Shown here: positions 47,917 to 52,129 of the stretch, one piece after another
Position numbering within the stretch: position 1 is the stretch's first letter
How the letters are laid out: each line of letters opens with the position of its first letter
Assembly (NCBI RefSeq): GCF_000243155.2
Contig: NC_018017.1
Span: 1,488,001 to 1,552,000, forward strand
Direction: 5' to 3'
DNA: 64,000 nucleotides
Origin: Desulfitobacterium dehalogenans ATCC 51507
GTDB lineage: Bacteria; Bacillota; Desulfitobacteriia; Desulfitobacteriales; Desulfitobacteriaceae
The notes under the pieces: model-generated
What the model was told of the DNA's origin: nothing
The model's input: only the letters and a program-made list of their open reading frames with translations
Databases searched by the model: none
Program-made: the position numbers and the translations under genes

Positions 47917-48029
47917 TTTTCGAAATAACGGGTGAAACATCTTGAATCAGCGGACCACATCGCATAGTCTACGGAACGTGGATTGTCTATTTAAAACTAG
48001 AGGATTATGCTGATTATGAGGTGAAAAAA

Positions 48030-48371
48030 ATGGACAGAAAAAAACAACTTCTGATGAAGTATAAATATAGGAAAACTGAGATGGGGATCATTTCGTTTCT
48101 ATGTATTCCAACAAAGGAAAGCTTTATTGGTTTTTCACAGGATACTAAAGCCTATATCAACAGCAATTGTTTTAAGCTGGGGGCAAATCTGCACCGTAAT
48201 TCTGAATTGCAGAAGTTGTGGAATCAATATGGGGAATCTGCTTTTGAAACTGGGGTTTTGGAAGTGTTGCCTTATGATGAAAAGGATAAGGAGAAAGAAG
48301 ATTACACCAAGGAATTGGAAGGAATGTGTAACCGCTACCTTAGAAATATGGAGAGGGCAAGGAGGATTTAA
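48030..48371 (+). CDS. degenerate GIY-YIG-like protein
   Basis: A 113-residue protein. MGIISFLCIPTKESFIGFSQ followed by NCFKLGANLHRNSELQKLWN and QYGESAFETGVLEVL follows the order of the GIY-YIG nuclease core (GIY, YIG, then the LxxGxHxNxxLQxxWxxYG segment). However the first Tyr is Ile and the second Phe, and the catalytic arginine position is not preserved, so cleavage activity is doubtful. GAGGTG precedes ATG 48030. It is the first gene of a tight run with the AAA+ ATPase (two-base gap) and the VWA gene. Confidence 0.75.
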   Translation: MDRKKQLLMKYKYRKTEMGIISFLCIPTKESFIGFSQDTKAYINSNCFKLGANLHRNSELQKLWNQYGESAFETGVLEVLPYDEKDKEKEDYTKELEGMCNRYLRNMERARRI

Positions 48372-48373
48372 GA

Positions 48374-49486
48374 ATGGATCAATGGCTTCTGTCTCCTGGC
48401 AGAAGGTTATCGGAAGAAGAGCAGACTCTTGTTTGGTGCAAGCCCTCCTCTCATAAGGACAGTGAGGAAGAAATCAGAATTTGTAATGAAATAAAGCGTA
48501 GCTGGAATCAAAGTGAAATGAAAATCGCCAATATACTTTTAGAAGGCGATGCCGGCTCAGGCAAAACGCAACTGGCCAAAGCCCTGTCCGCCAACTTCGG
48601 ACTGCCTTATACCAAAGTAACCTGCTTTGCCGATATGGATAAGTCGGATATCATCGGCGCAATTCTGCCGGTTCTATCTGATGAACAGCAAGAAAGTATG
48701 GGTCGTGAAGAAAAAGAAGCACTCAAGGCTTTATATCAAAGTGATAATTTGTCTGCTGCTGTCGGGATATTAGTCAAGACCCTTGGCATCACGGAGAAGC
48801 AGGCAGGGGTTAGAATAAGGCAGATGGTAAAAGTCCTTGAACAGCTGCCGCAGACGGAAAATGTCAAATACCGTTTTTACCCTTCCGAAATTGTTCGGGC
48901 ATTCCGTAACGGTTATCTTTTAGAGATACAGGAACCAACAGTAATCCGGGATGCGGCAATGCTGATGGCCTTAAATTCGGCACTGGAACCCGATGGGATC
49001 ATCAATTTACCGACTGAAATTATCCATCGGCATCCCGATTTTATTGCGGTGATTACTACAAACAGGGGCTATAATGGTTGCCGCCCCTTGAATGAAGCCT
49101 TACGTGACCGTATTCAGCACGCTGAAAGAATGGATATGCCCTCTATAGAGGTAATGATAGAGCGGGCTATTGCAAAAACAGGCTATACAGATCGGTATGT
49201 TTTGTCTGTGCTGGCAAATGCAATTTTTGTGCTTGATCAGACAGCGAGGGCAAATGCCATAAAAGGTGTGGCGGGCATGCGCTCCTATTTCTACTGGATC
49301 GATGCCGTTGCTTATGGAGCTGATGTAAAAGAGTCTCTTTATCATAAGGTAATTTATAAAATCACTACCGACCCGGACGAAATTCGTATTTTGGAAGAAG
49401 CATTGAAGGCACAAGGCATCACTTCAGAGCTGAATGATATCAATAGTAATAGAAATGTAAAAAAAAACATGATTCCGACGTCATAG
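48374..49486 (+). CDS. MoxR-type AAA+ ATPase
   Basis: A 370-residue ATPase. Walker A is LLEGDAGSGKTQLAKALS at about residues 55-70. The Walker B region reads YLLEIQEPTVI, glutamate-rich rather than LLLDE. Sensor 1 is VITTNRGYNGC, followed by LNEALRDRIQHAE. The ending is KKNMIPTS after an A9 tract. In the -1 frame the sequence continues open into the next gene, so the natural product may be longer (see findings). RBS AGGAGG lies in the end of the GIY-YIG gene. These ATPases usually work with VWA proteins, as here, to insert metals or remodel partners. Confidence 0.88.
   Translation: MDQWLLSPGRRLSEEEQTLVWCKPSSHKDSEEEIRICNEIKRSWNQSEMKIANILLEGDAGSGKTQLAKALSANFGLPYTKVTCFADMDKSDIIGAILPVLSDEQQESMGREEKEALKALYQSDNLSAAVGILVKTLGITEKQAGVRIRQMVKVLEQLPQTENVKYRFYPSEIVRAFRNGYLLEIQEPTVIRDAAMLMALNSALEPDGIINLPTEIIHRHPDFIAVITTNRGYNGCRPLNEALRDRIQHAERMDMPSIEVMIERAIAKTGYTDRYVLSVLANAIFVLDQTARANAIKGVAGMRSYFYWIDAVAYGADVKESLYHKVIYKITTDPDEIRILEEALKAQGITSELNDINSNRNVKKNMIPTS
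49459..49467 (+). repeat. A9 tract with an A-AAA-AAC slippery heptamer
   Basis: Nine A lie at the end of the ATPase frame: GTA AAA AAA AAC ATG in frame zero. A shift to the -1 frame, or insertion of one A in the transcript, changes this to GTA AAA AAA AAA CAT and joins the following open frame that leads into the VWA protein. Confidence 0.7.
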
Positions 49487-49554
49487 AAATCCGTATATGG
49501 GATGACGGCCAGACTTCCGGAGAGGATGAGCCGGAAAAGGATGATAATGCTGTC

Positions 49555-50571
49555 ATGCTGAGGAAGGCTGCCAACAGTGAGGGACAATCAAATAAAGCAT
49601 CGGAAGAAACACAAAACACCCGAAACTCTGATTTGGGTGAATACGGAAACCCAAACTACCATCAAATGAATTCATGTGACCAGGAAGATAAACGCAAAAA
49701 GCAGGAGTTCCGGAAACAATTGAACCAGGATGCCCGCAAGACACTGGTCGGGACAATCCATCAGGGGATTAAGCTTATTGTTCACCGCCCTGAGGCTATC
49801 TTGCAGCAAAGAGAAGAATACTATCGGCTGTCTTCAGAGATCATGCCGGTTATCCGGGAGCTTGTGAGAAAAGCAAAGCCACTATTGGAGCATGAGGTAT
49901 CGGTGGATTTTGCCAGGCACCATGTTTATGGAAGTAGATTTCATGCCGAAAGCATAGCCTCAAAGGATTTTCGCTACTTTGCCAAGAAGCGGCCTCCGGA
50001 GGAAGCTCCATCCCTGGCGGTGGCATTACGGATTGACGAATCGGCGTCCATGTCTGCATTTGGACGGCTGGGTGCAGCGAAAGGTGCTGCTATTGCTGTA
50101 TACGAATTTTGCGACCAGTGTGATATTCCTCTGCTGATCTATGGTGATACGGCAGACCGCTCAAAAATGGAGCAAATGTCGGTCTATGCATACAGTGACT
50201 TTTCGAAAAAAGAAGCCGATGACCGCTTTCGCTTGATGCATATTCAGGGCAGAAGCAATAACCGTGATGGTCTGGCGTTACGGATTCTGTCCGAGAAGCT
50301 GCTGACCGCCCCAAAGCAGACCAAATTGCTAATAAGCATCAGTGACGGGCAGCCGAAGGCAACCCCTGATTATACCGGCAGCTTTGCTGTCGAGGATGTG
50401 CAAAATACCATAAAGGAATATAGCCGGAAGGGAATCACTTTTATAGCGGCTGCGATTGGGCAGGATAAGGATATAATCAGTCAGATTTACGGGAAAGACC
50501 GATTTTTGGATATTACTGATTTGAATCATCTGCCCACACAATTGGTAAACATGATCACACGTTATTTATGA
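49555..50571 (+). CDS. VWA-domain protein (CobT/NorD-like)
   Basis: At least 338 residues. A charged linker is followed at about residue 45 by a helical region (IHQGIKLIVHRPEAILQQRE). The VWA domain lies at about 150-335 with MIDAS motif ALRIDESASMSAFGR, threonine-like position in NNRDGLALR and ISDGQPKATPDY. The ATG at 49555 has only AAGG 14 bases upstream. The frame is open back to 49453 through an acidic stretch (DDGQTSGEDEPEKDD) that looks coding, so translation probably enters from the ATPase gene by frameshift, or the upstream start is lost. It is presumably the partner of the AAA+ ATPase. Confidence 0.82.
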   Translation: MLRKAANSEGQSNKASEETQNTRNSDLGEYGNPNYHQMNSCDQEDKRKKQEFRKQLNQDARKTLVGTIHQGIKLIVHRPEAILQQREEYYRLSSEIMPVIRELVRKAKPLLEHEVSVDFARHHVYGSRFHAESIASKDFRYFAKKRPPEEAPSLAVALRIDESASMSAFGRLGAAKGAAIAVYEFCDQCDIPLLIYGDTADRSKMEQMSVYAYSDFSKKEADDRFRLMHIQGRSNNRDGLALRILSEKLLTAPKQTKLLISISDGQPKATPDYTGSFAVEDVQNTIKEYSRKGITFIAAAIGQDKDIISQIYGKDRFLDITDLNHLPTQLVNMITRYL

Positions 50572-50603: not shown

Positions 50604-51221
50604 ATGGACTGTGCTAAAGTAGGAAAGCTGATATTACATCTGCGCAAAGAACGGGGCCTTACCCAAAAAAATGTTGCTGATGCCTTAAACATCAGCAACA
50701 AAACTGTTTCGAAATGGGAACGTGGACTTGGATGTCCGGATGTTTCCCTTTTGGCAGAACTATCCGAGGTCTTAGGAGCGGATATGGAAAAGATGCTGGA
50801 AGGGGAACTTGATCCCAACAGGCCGGATAATGGGAACATCAACAGAATACGCTTCTATGTCTGTCCGACTTGCGGCAATGTCCTAACCAGCTCAAATAAA
50901 GCATCGATTTCCTGCTGCGGCAGAAAGCTTGTGCCCCTTGTGCCAAAGGAACACTTGGAGCATCATGTGATGACCGTAGAGGAAATCGATATCTACAATT
51001 ATATATCCATGGATCATGAAATGATAAAATCACATTTTATCAGATTTATCGCCTATGTGGGACCCGATATGGTTCTCTTAAAACGACTTTATCCGGAGCA
51101 GAGTGCCAATATCTATATTCCGGTTATGGGACGTGACGGAAAACTTTATGGCTATTGCAGCCGGCATGGGCTGTGGGTACAGTCTATGCATCCTAAAGAA
51201 GGAGCTGCTTATGATGAATGA
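50604..51221 (+). CDS. HTH regulator fused to a desulfoferrodoxin-like domain
   Basis: A 205-residue protein. Residues 1-65 form an XRE-type helix-turn-helix (LHLRKERGLTQKNVADALNI then SKWERGLGCPDVSLLAELSE). Residues about 80-110 look like the desulforedoxin Cys4 iron site: YVCPTCGNVLTSS..SCCGRKL. Residues about 115-200 follow the superoxide reductase centre II pattern: LEHHV, DHEMIKSHFIRFIAYVG and YCSRHGLWVQ, which supply His and Cys ligands. It may be an iron-containing redox or superoxide sensor, or a bifunctional protein. ATG 50604 follows GGGGGAG. The next gene, phzF-like, overlaps or nearly overlaps its end. Confidence 0.85.
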   Translation: MDCAKVGKLILHLRKERGLTQKNVADALNISNKTVSKWERGLGCPDVSLLAELSEVLGADMEKMLEGELDPNRPDNGNINRIRFYVCPTCGNVLTSSNKASISCCGRKLVPLVPKEHLEHHVMTVEEIDIYNYISMDHEMIKSHFIRFIAYVGPDMVLLKRLYPEQSANIYIPVMGRDGKLYGYCSRHGLWVQSMHPKEGAAYDE

Positions 51222-51238
51222 TAAAAGGGGATGAGAGT

Positions 51239-52129
51239 TTGTTAGAAAAAAATAATATAATAAATGTTCTTCACTATGAGGCATTCTCCGATATTCCTAA
51301 CAAAGGGAATCCCGCAGGGGTAGTCTTTGATTCTGACAGGCTGACAGAAGAGCAGATGCAGAGTATAGCAAAAAAAGTGGGCTTTAATGAGACCGCTTTT
51401 TTATTAAAGTCAAATAAAGCAGACTTGCGCATACGCTATTTTACGCCGGGGCATGAAATGAATTTATGCGGACATGGTACTATTGCATCAATTTTTGGAC
51501 TGATGAAAAGAAATAATACTACGTCCTCAAGGGATTTGAGCATCGAGACATTGGCAGGAATCCTTAATGTTCAGTATGATCATGAACAACAGGAGATTAG
51601 AATGGCTCAAGCACCAGCTGAATTTAAGGAGTTTCACGGGGATTTAGACCAGTTGGCAGATTCTATTGGACTACTAAGCGAGGATATTGCTTTGGAGTTA
51701 CCAGTTGTTTATGGGAGCACAGGTATCTGGACTTTAATTCTCCCGATTAAGAAGCTCGATGCTTTCTTACGTATGAAGCCGGACAATAGAAGATTTAAAG
51801 AGATTTTAACTCAAATACCGACTGCTTCAATCCATCCGGTATGTCTGGATACATTCGATAAAACGTGTAGAATGCATGGCAGGCATTTTTCAGCTTCACA
51901 TTCAGGAACCATAGAAGATCCGGTTACAGGTACTGCCTCCGGGGTAATGGGCGCTTACTATATATCCTATATTGAACCTTCTAATCAAGCGGAATTTCTC
52001 ATAGAGCAGGGGAATGAGATCGGGCGGAAGGGAATAGTCAGGGTATACGTGGAAAAAAAGAACTCACTAATCAATATTAGTATATCGGGAAAAGCGGTAT
52101 ACATGGGAGATATTCTTATAGAGTATTAA
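51239..52129 (+). CDS. PhzF-family isomerase/epimerase-like protein
   Basis: A protein of about 296 residues, PhzF fold. N-terminus LHYEAFSDIPNKGNPAGVVF, then KKVGFNETAFLLKSNKADLR with the catalytic glutamate, then RYFTPGHEMNLCGHGTIASI, and the C-terminal EDPVTGTASGVMGAYYISYI. The last is the conserved DPVTGSA motif. PhzF itself isomerises DHHA for phenazines; homologues have other unknown substrates and no phenazine genes are nearby. TTG 51239 is chosen because of GGGG eight bases upstream. ATG 51218, overlapping the previous stop, is the alternative. Confidence 0.88.
   Translation: MLEKNNIINVLHYEAFSDIPNKGNPAGVVFDSDRLTEEQMQSIAKKVGFNETAFLLKSNKADLRIRYFTPGHEMNLCGHGTIASIFGLMKRNNTTSSRDLSIETLAGILNVQYDHEQQEIRMAQAPAEFKEFHGDLDQLADSIGLLSEDIALELPVVYGSTGIWTLILPIKKLDAFLRMKPDNRRFKEILTQIPTASIHPVCLDTFDKTCRMHGRHFSASHSGTIEDPVTGTASGVMGAYYISYIEPSNQAEFLIEQGNEIGRKGIVRVYVEKKNSLINISISGKAVYMGDILIEY

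Follow-up and report, generated by a model that had tools for sequence, protein, structure and literature searches.

An XRE helix-turn-helix protein with a degenerate desulfoferrodoxin-like domain in Desulfitobacterium dehalogenans and a conserved operator-like site at the promoter of its operon

Introduction

This study asks what purpose is served by a protein that joins a DNA-binding domain to the fold of a superoxide reductase (SOR), and specifically whether the enzyme-like part still looks like an enzyme or has become a sensor. The protein is encoded in a 64,000-nucleotide stretch of the Desulfitobacterium dehalogenans ATCC 51507 genome, which is referred to here as the window. A sequence-only reading of this DNA had described a helix-turn-helix (HTH) fused to a complete SOR domain, had suggested that its iron centre may directly sense superoxide or oxygen, and had seen a notable sensing mode in a regulator built from an enzyme fold. 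The architecture is already known: in SORGOdb the HTH-Dx-SOR class was named in 2011, with 19 proteins and on architecture only (PMC3116461). Members of that class have an N-terminal HTH, a desulforedoxin-like Cys4 module and a SOR module, in that order and in one protein, as does the window protein. In the text consulted, the paper gives neither a function nor an operator for the class, and it describes a screen for centre II by the pattern HX5H-CX2H, which is blind to Lys48 and His49 (PMC3116461). It is likely that the 19 SORGOdb proteins and the HTH-fused set assembled here are identical.

No paper on HTH-Dx-SOR function was found in the open-licence literature. A 104-aa XRE protein of Treponema denticola, TrtA, was considered as a counterpart and rejected, as it is without a desulfoferrodoxin domain, and papers on Filifactor FA519 and on a C. 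acetobutylicum regulator proved to be unrelated to HTH-Dx-SOR. Within the same literature no earlier description was found of the putative operator reported below, of its fixed position at the promoter or of the operons, and the operator appears to be new.

Results

The gene under study is the following.

50604..51221, + strand: HTH-Dx-SOR gene, a 205-aa ORF with an XRE HTH, a Cys4 desulforedoxin-like centre and a degenerate SOR centre II

The fusion of an XRE HTH to a desulfoferrodoxin-like domain within 205 residues, as proposed from the sequence, was borne out: Pfam placed an HTH_3 domain at residues 13-62 (E 7.8e-14), TIGR00320 matched a desulfoferrodoxin domain at residues 80-192 (E 5.8e-11), and Foldseek recovered the same fold. 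Among solved structures, 1dfx was matched by phmmer at E 1.2e-6. For an AlphaFold2 model based on an alignment of seven sequences (mean pLDDT 78, pTM 0.55), Foldseek ranked desulfoferrodoxin crystal structures highest, namely 1vzg (E 4.2e-9, TM 0.73 by target), 1y07_D (TM 0.77) and 1dfx (0.71), so that comparison of the predicted structure with desulfoferrodoxin gave a matching fold. The window protein thus shares with the desulfoferrodoxins 1dfx, 1vzg and 2ji1 both the fold (Foldseek E about 5e-9) and nine metal-ligand positions.

These nine positions, which the sequence-only reading had also named, were all found by alignment. Centre I is formed by C87, C90, C104 and C105 (Cys4), and the putative centre II ligands are H121, H138, H144, C185 and H188, the four histidines and one cysteine that align with the five ligands of the enzyme. 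The SORGOdb pattern for centre II, HX5H ... CX2H, is present as H138-x5-H144 and C185-x2-H188. The published centre II motif is (E)(K)H(x)19-27H(x)5H(x)40-63C(x)2H (PMC11980386), whereas the window protein reads E-H-H(x)16H(x)5H(x)40C(x)2H, beginning at E119-H120-H121. Glu47 of the enzyme is kept, but the position of the catalytic Lys48, a residue whose role was treated by Lombard et al. 2001 (cited in PMC3116461), is taken by His120, and the (E)(K)H loop of the enzyme is therefore altered. The spacing of centre I is CX2CX13CC and not the CX2CX15CC that the SORGOdb paper gives for centre I in general (PMC3116461); together with the 16-residue gap between H121 and H138, this makes two loops shorter than in the enzyme. 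Neither cut-off for the 2Fe superoxide reductase family was reached, with scores of 42.7 bits against 146.9 for TIGR00320 and 18.4 bits against 22.2 for PF01880 (Pfam, residues 118-193). Of the "complete" SOR domain, then, the nine ligands stand, but the lysine, the motif spacings and the family scores do not.

Homologues were gathered from GTDB species genomes, from the window's class and from its phylum, where 30 of 398 sampled genomes carried one at E <= 1e-20. For comparison, 43 HTH-fused proteins were set against 45 stand-alone Dx-SOR enzymes, 30 of which were the best TIGR00320 scorers, so that the enzyme set is biased towards textbook enzymes. In a maximum-likelihood tree the two sets fell on the two sides of a single branch with 100/100 support. 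Centre I was kept almost throughout the HTH-fused set, its four cysteines being present in 43, 43, 43 and 40 of the 43 proteins, with the spacing CX2CX13CC in all 43 against CX2CX15CC in 45/45 enzymes. At centre II, His69, His75 and Cys116 were invariant (43/43), but Lys48 was found in only two HTH-fused proteins against 45/45 enzymes, the ligand His49 in 27/43 against 45/45, and the ligand His119 in 37/43 against 44/45 (one gap). Every centre II ligand is present in the window protein and in its two closest relatives. His49 is absent from a clade comprising L012-L018 and L044-L049 and also from L037-L040; since the latter nest within the window's own clade, it was probably lost on at least two separate occasions. 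As these losses of centre II ligands and of Lys48 run across the family, what the family conserves, judged by its sequences, is Cys4 plus a His2Cys set (His69, His75 and Cys116), and not the full His4Cys superoxide site.

Three further genes precede the HTH-Dx-SOR gene.

48030..48371, + strand: GIY-YIG-like small protein (c2), which opens the operon (match to a homing endonuclease model of PADLOC, E 7.2e-8)
48374..49486, + strand: MoxR/GvpN-like AAA ATPase (AAA_5, E 5.4e-12; GvpN 42.8 bits, below cut-off)
49555..50571, + strand: CobT-like vWA protein (CobT_C, E 3.3e-5)

All four genes lie on one strand with small gaps, HTH-Dx-SOR being the fourth. The ORF of the GIY-YIG-like gene opens at GTG 48021, with a Shine-Dalgarno sequence GAGGTG at 48018-48023, and its likely start is 48030. 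Its product had no Pfam match and appears to be without the usual GIY-YIG tyrosines. An anti-phage system was considered for the locus and rejected, as the PADLOC matches were to generic HTH, AAA and homing-endonuclease models. Relatives within the window protein's clade have these genes arranged as GIY-YIG-like, DUF6530, fused ATPase-vWA and HTH-Dx-SOR; no paper mentioning DUF6530 was found in the open-licence literature. The GIY-YIG-like gene was clustered upstream of the HTH-Dx-SOR gene in 13 loci, and ATPase-vWA was likewise found in 13 loci, in most relatives as one protein of about 680 aa. In the window (48374-50571) and in L001 the ATPase and vWA parts are separate genes, split in the linker, with a gap here of 68 bp. 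The contig of L001, which carries an 89% identical gene and the same operon, is labelled as a Bacteroidetes MAG but was probably mis-binned and belongs to the Clostridia. HTH-Dx-SOR comes directly after the GIY-YIG-like gene in R. papyrosolvens (L002) and Acetoanaerobium (L175). The GIY-YIG-like gene is the most persistent partner in the clade, being kept in these two loci without the ATPase-vWA genes. Downstream of the window operon, a PhzF-like isomerase ORF (51218-52129) has 4 bp in common with the end of the HTH-Dx-SOR gene; it is not conserved beside the relatives examined.

The cargo differs elsewhere in the family. In another lineage the HTH-Dx-SOR gene comes first, and the next gene, for an FMN reductase (PF03358), either lies 13-18 bp away or overlaps it (L068-L070, L072, L074 and L089). 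Among the other partners are a LUD protein (L086), a flavin reductase (L095) and, just 2 bp behind HTH-Dx-SOR, a chloramphenicol acetyltransferase (L085).

A short motif, TCTACGGAGCGTNNATTG (dyad CTACG-N3-CGTAG), is common to the regions upstream of the first gene of each operon. In the window it accompanies a candidate promoter.

47968..47985, + strand: operator-like site TCTACGGAACGTGGATTG (dyad CTACG-N3-CGTGG), the sole exact match anywhere in the 4.32-Mb genome, the window included
47983..48011, + strand: sigma-A type promoter as read from the sequence, with -35 TTGTCT (47983-47988), a 17-bp spacer and -10 TATGCT (48006-48011)

One lineage has a near-perfect dyad (CTACGCTGCGTAG); in the others it is half degenerate. 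When 33 loci were aligned on the site, a -10 element TANNNT stood at one and the same offset in 32 (next best offset, 6), and in most a -35 TTG overlapped the end of the site with a spacer of 17 bp, the sequence of the spacer itself being unconserved. The site and a -10 at the same offset also recurred in loci outside the alignment (L075, L084, L091, L094, L096, L100, L101, L102, and L175 of Acetoanaerobium). It was not found in L001, L005, L081, L092, L103 or L174, in a few of these because of a truncated contig or gene. In L102, where an FMN reductase gene precedes that of HTH-Dx-SOR, the site lies upstream of the FMN reductase; the candidate operator thus precedes whichever gene stands first in the operon. 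Two copies are present in L079 (1069-1086 and 2392-2409), the first preceding an MFS transporter gene and the second the GIY-YIG-like gene, which suggests a two-promoter regulon in that genome. In L003, L004, L006 and L175 an inverted second half-site (CGTAGAC) in the -35/-10 spacer produces a long inverted repeat across the promoter.

Specificity was assessed at two scales. In the D. dehalogenans genome, matches with two mismatches numbered 13, against 25 for a reversed-pattern control, and so no wider regulon is claimed; the single exact site and the lack of any excess over the control point to a local regulator. In a survey of 83 class genomes that tolerated one mismatch, the site was present in 15/15 that carry an HTH-Dx-SOR gene or fragment and in 10/68 that do not (Fisher p 2.7e-10, a descriptive value, since the pattern was partly derived from the surveyed genomes), and the control pattern matched at about the 10/68 background rate. 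Three of the ten gene-less genomes with a site look like relics of the locus, with an operator beside apparent locus remnants and no working HTH-Dx-SOR gene (L116 in G004, L120 in G012 and L121 in G013).

Apart from HTH-Dx-SOR, no desulfoferrodoxin or SOR-like protein was found in the D. dehalogenans genome. A role as sole superoxide defence was nevertheless rejected, because the genome encodes an Fe/Mn superoxide dismutase (SOD) and gave six rubrerythrin-family matches, and HTH-Dx-SOR is thus not needed as a superoxide scavenger.

Discussion

The best explanation of this locus is that HTH-Dx-SOR is a dedicated, local one-component autoregulator, probably a repressor, in which the SOR-derived metal domain serves as a sensor and not as an enzyme; we give this reading a probability of roughly 0.55. 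The idea of a DNA-binding regulator on an enzyme fold, put forward in the sequence-only reading, has become well supported at the level of sequence, given a dyad that abuts the -35 in most lineages and its occurrence in 15/15 class genomes with the gene. That the domain would be a sensor follows from the near loss of Lys48 (2/43 against 45/45), the spacing CX2CX13CC in place of CX2CX15CC, and the branch with 100/100 support that separates the HTH-fused proteins from the enzymes. In this anaerobe, and in many related gut and soil bacteria, the presumed sensor would be a worn-down copy of desulfoferrodoxin.

The proposed mechanism begins with a signal domain that would descend from a two-iron superoxide reductase and have given up its catalytic design. 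The protein would act as a dimer that, like desulfoferrodoxin, is probably held together through the desulforedoxin-like Cys4 module; because desulfoferrodoxin is a homodimer (PMC9916283), the module could hold a pair of HTH domains on the dyad. Such a dimer would bind CTACG-N3-CGTAG adjoining the -35 of its own operon, and we regard binding of the operator-like site by HTH-Dx-SOR as very probable. In the resting, reduced and metal-loaded state the operon would most likely be repressed, and release would come once the metal/Cys centre was oxidised or its metal lost. Since the promoter is otherwise a good one and its -35 lies partly under the site, repression of its own operon explains the arrangement more simply than activation, and we hold it to be probable with a lesser degree of confidence than binding. 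An XRE HTH and a dyad operator-like site at the promoter of its own operon are what would be expected of an XRE/Cro-CI one-component regulator, but the C-terminal part has a desulfoferrodoxin fold in place of an oligomerisation, peptidase or cupin domain.

The position beside the -35 would also suit an activator, and this weighs against the repressor reading. HTH-Dx-SOR could, like lambda cI at PRM, recruit RNA polymerase once oxidation or metal binding has altered its metal site: the centre of the dyad is close to -43, the spacing to the -10 is constant in 32/33 loci, and several clade-C promoters have weak -35 boxes. However, clade A and B promoters combine a good -35 (TTGNNN) and -10 with an optimal 17-bp spacer, and a site overlapping such a -35 suits repression, as do the inverted half-sites within the spacer of L003, L004 and L006. 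Activation is judged somewhat unlikely.

A second alternative keeps the regulator and changes its signal. The most conserved residues, Cys4 with His69, His75 and Cys116, would fit a zinc or iron site, and it is conceivable that Cys4 and the residual His2Cys(His) bind Zn or Fe structurally and report metal supply rather than reactive oxygen species. A ZIP metal transporter does lie downstream in L174, but in that locus only, and it is one in which no operator was found, while the SOR ancestry and the frequency of flavoproteins among the partners speak for redox. A metal-supply sensor is thus a rather unlikely reading.

It is improbable that HTH-Dx-SOR is a bifunctional trigger enzyme, one that has kept superoxide reduction and for which regulation is a secondary role. 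The five ligands and Glu47 are kept in the window protein, its two closest relatives retain all ligands as well, and no other SOR-like protein was found in its genome; yet Lys48 has been lost here and in 41/43 relatives, His49 in 16/43, the loops are shortened, and an Fe/Mn SOD is at hand. That the site belongs to another, global regulator, of which the HTH-Dx-SOR gene would merely be a target, is very improbable given one exact site in the genome, the co-occurrence of 15/15 against 10/68, and the way in which the site follows the operon through differing gene orders.

With the local autoregulator as the preferred reading, its weakest step is the signal, for which we see about an even chance that it is oxidative or redox. 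Direct sensing of superoxide or O2 by an iron centre, as put forward in the sequence-only reading, is one candidate form of it. An oxidative or redox signal is suggested by the SOR ancestry, the retained metal ligands and the flavoprotein cargo of some lineages: FMN_red flavoproteins stand beside HTH-Dx-SOR in several clade-B loci, and a flavin reductase is nearby in L095, which gives a redox theme. Against this, the GIY-YIG-like/DUF6530/MoxR-vWA operon of the window's clade has no known link to oxidative stress, and neighbours such as the chloramphenicol acetyltransferase (L085) and the MFS transporter (L079) are not redox genes. Moreover, as many relatives have lost His49 or His119, a sensing chemistry common to the whole family must be able to work without an intact His4Cys site. 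A broader proposal, that the family is a redox switch made from the SOR fold, with its own operator, widespread in anaerobic Firmicutes and acting as a local regulator for interchangeable cargo operons (flavin reductases, a LUD protein, drug acetyltransferase or efflux, and the GIY-YIG/DUF6530/MoxR-vWA module), is offered tentatively, at somewhat less than even odds.

In the redox regulators SoxR, PerR and OxyR, promoter control depends on a metal or cysteine centre that responds to oxidants. The logic proposed for HTH-Dx-SOR is alike, but the folds are unrelated, and the HTH-Dx-SOR site occurs once in its own genome, in contrast to the regulons of the three. If the signal is superoxide or redox-cycling compounds, obligate anaerobes would have in HTH-Dx-SOR a redox regulator whose fold differs from those of SoxR, PerR and OxyR, and there would also be a first lead to the role of the GIY-YIG/DUF6530/MoxR-vWA operon. 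Regulators built on enzyme folds show how sensors evolve, and here the step can be followed in the sequence record: a two-iron SOR has been deprived of its catalytic lysine and, repeatedly, of ligands of its catalytic iron, and has gained an HTH and a fixed candidate operator. A testable function is thereby added to a known architecture, through the operator-like site with its constant position, the operons and the degenerate active site. As the putative operator is simple, conserved and single-copy, it makes the family a ready test case for the ways in which an enzyme fold can turn into a redox sensor.
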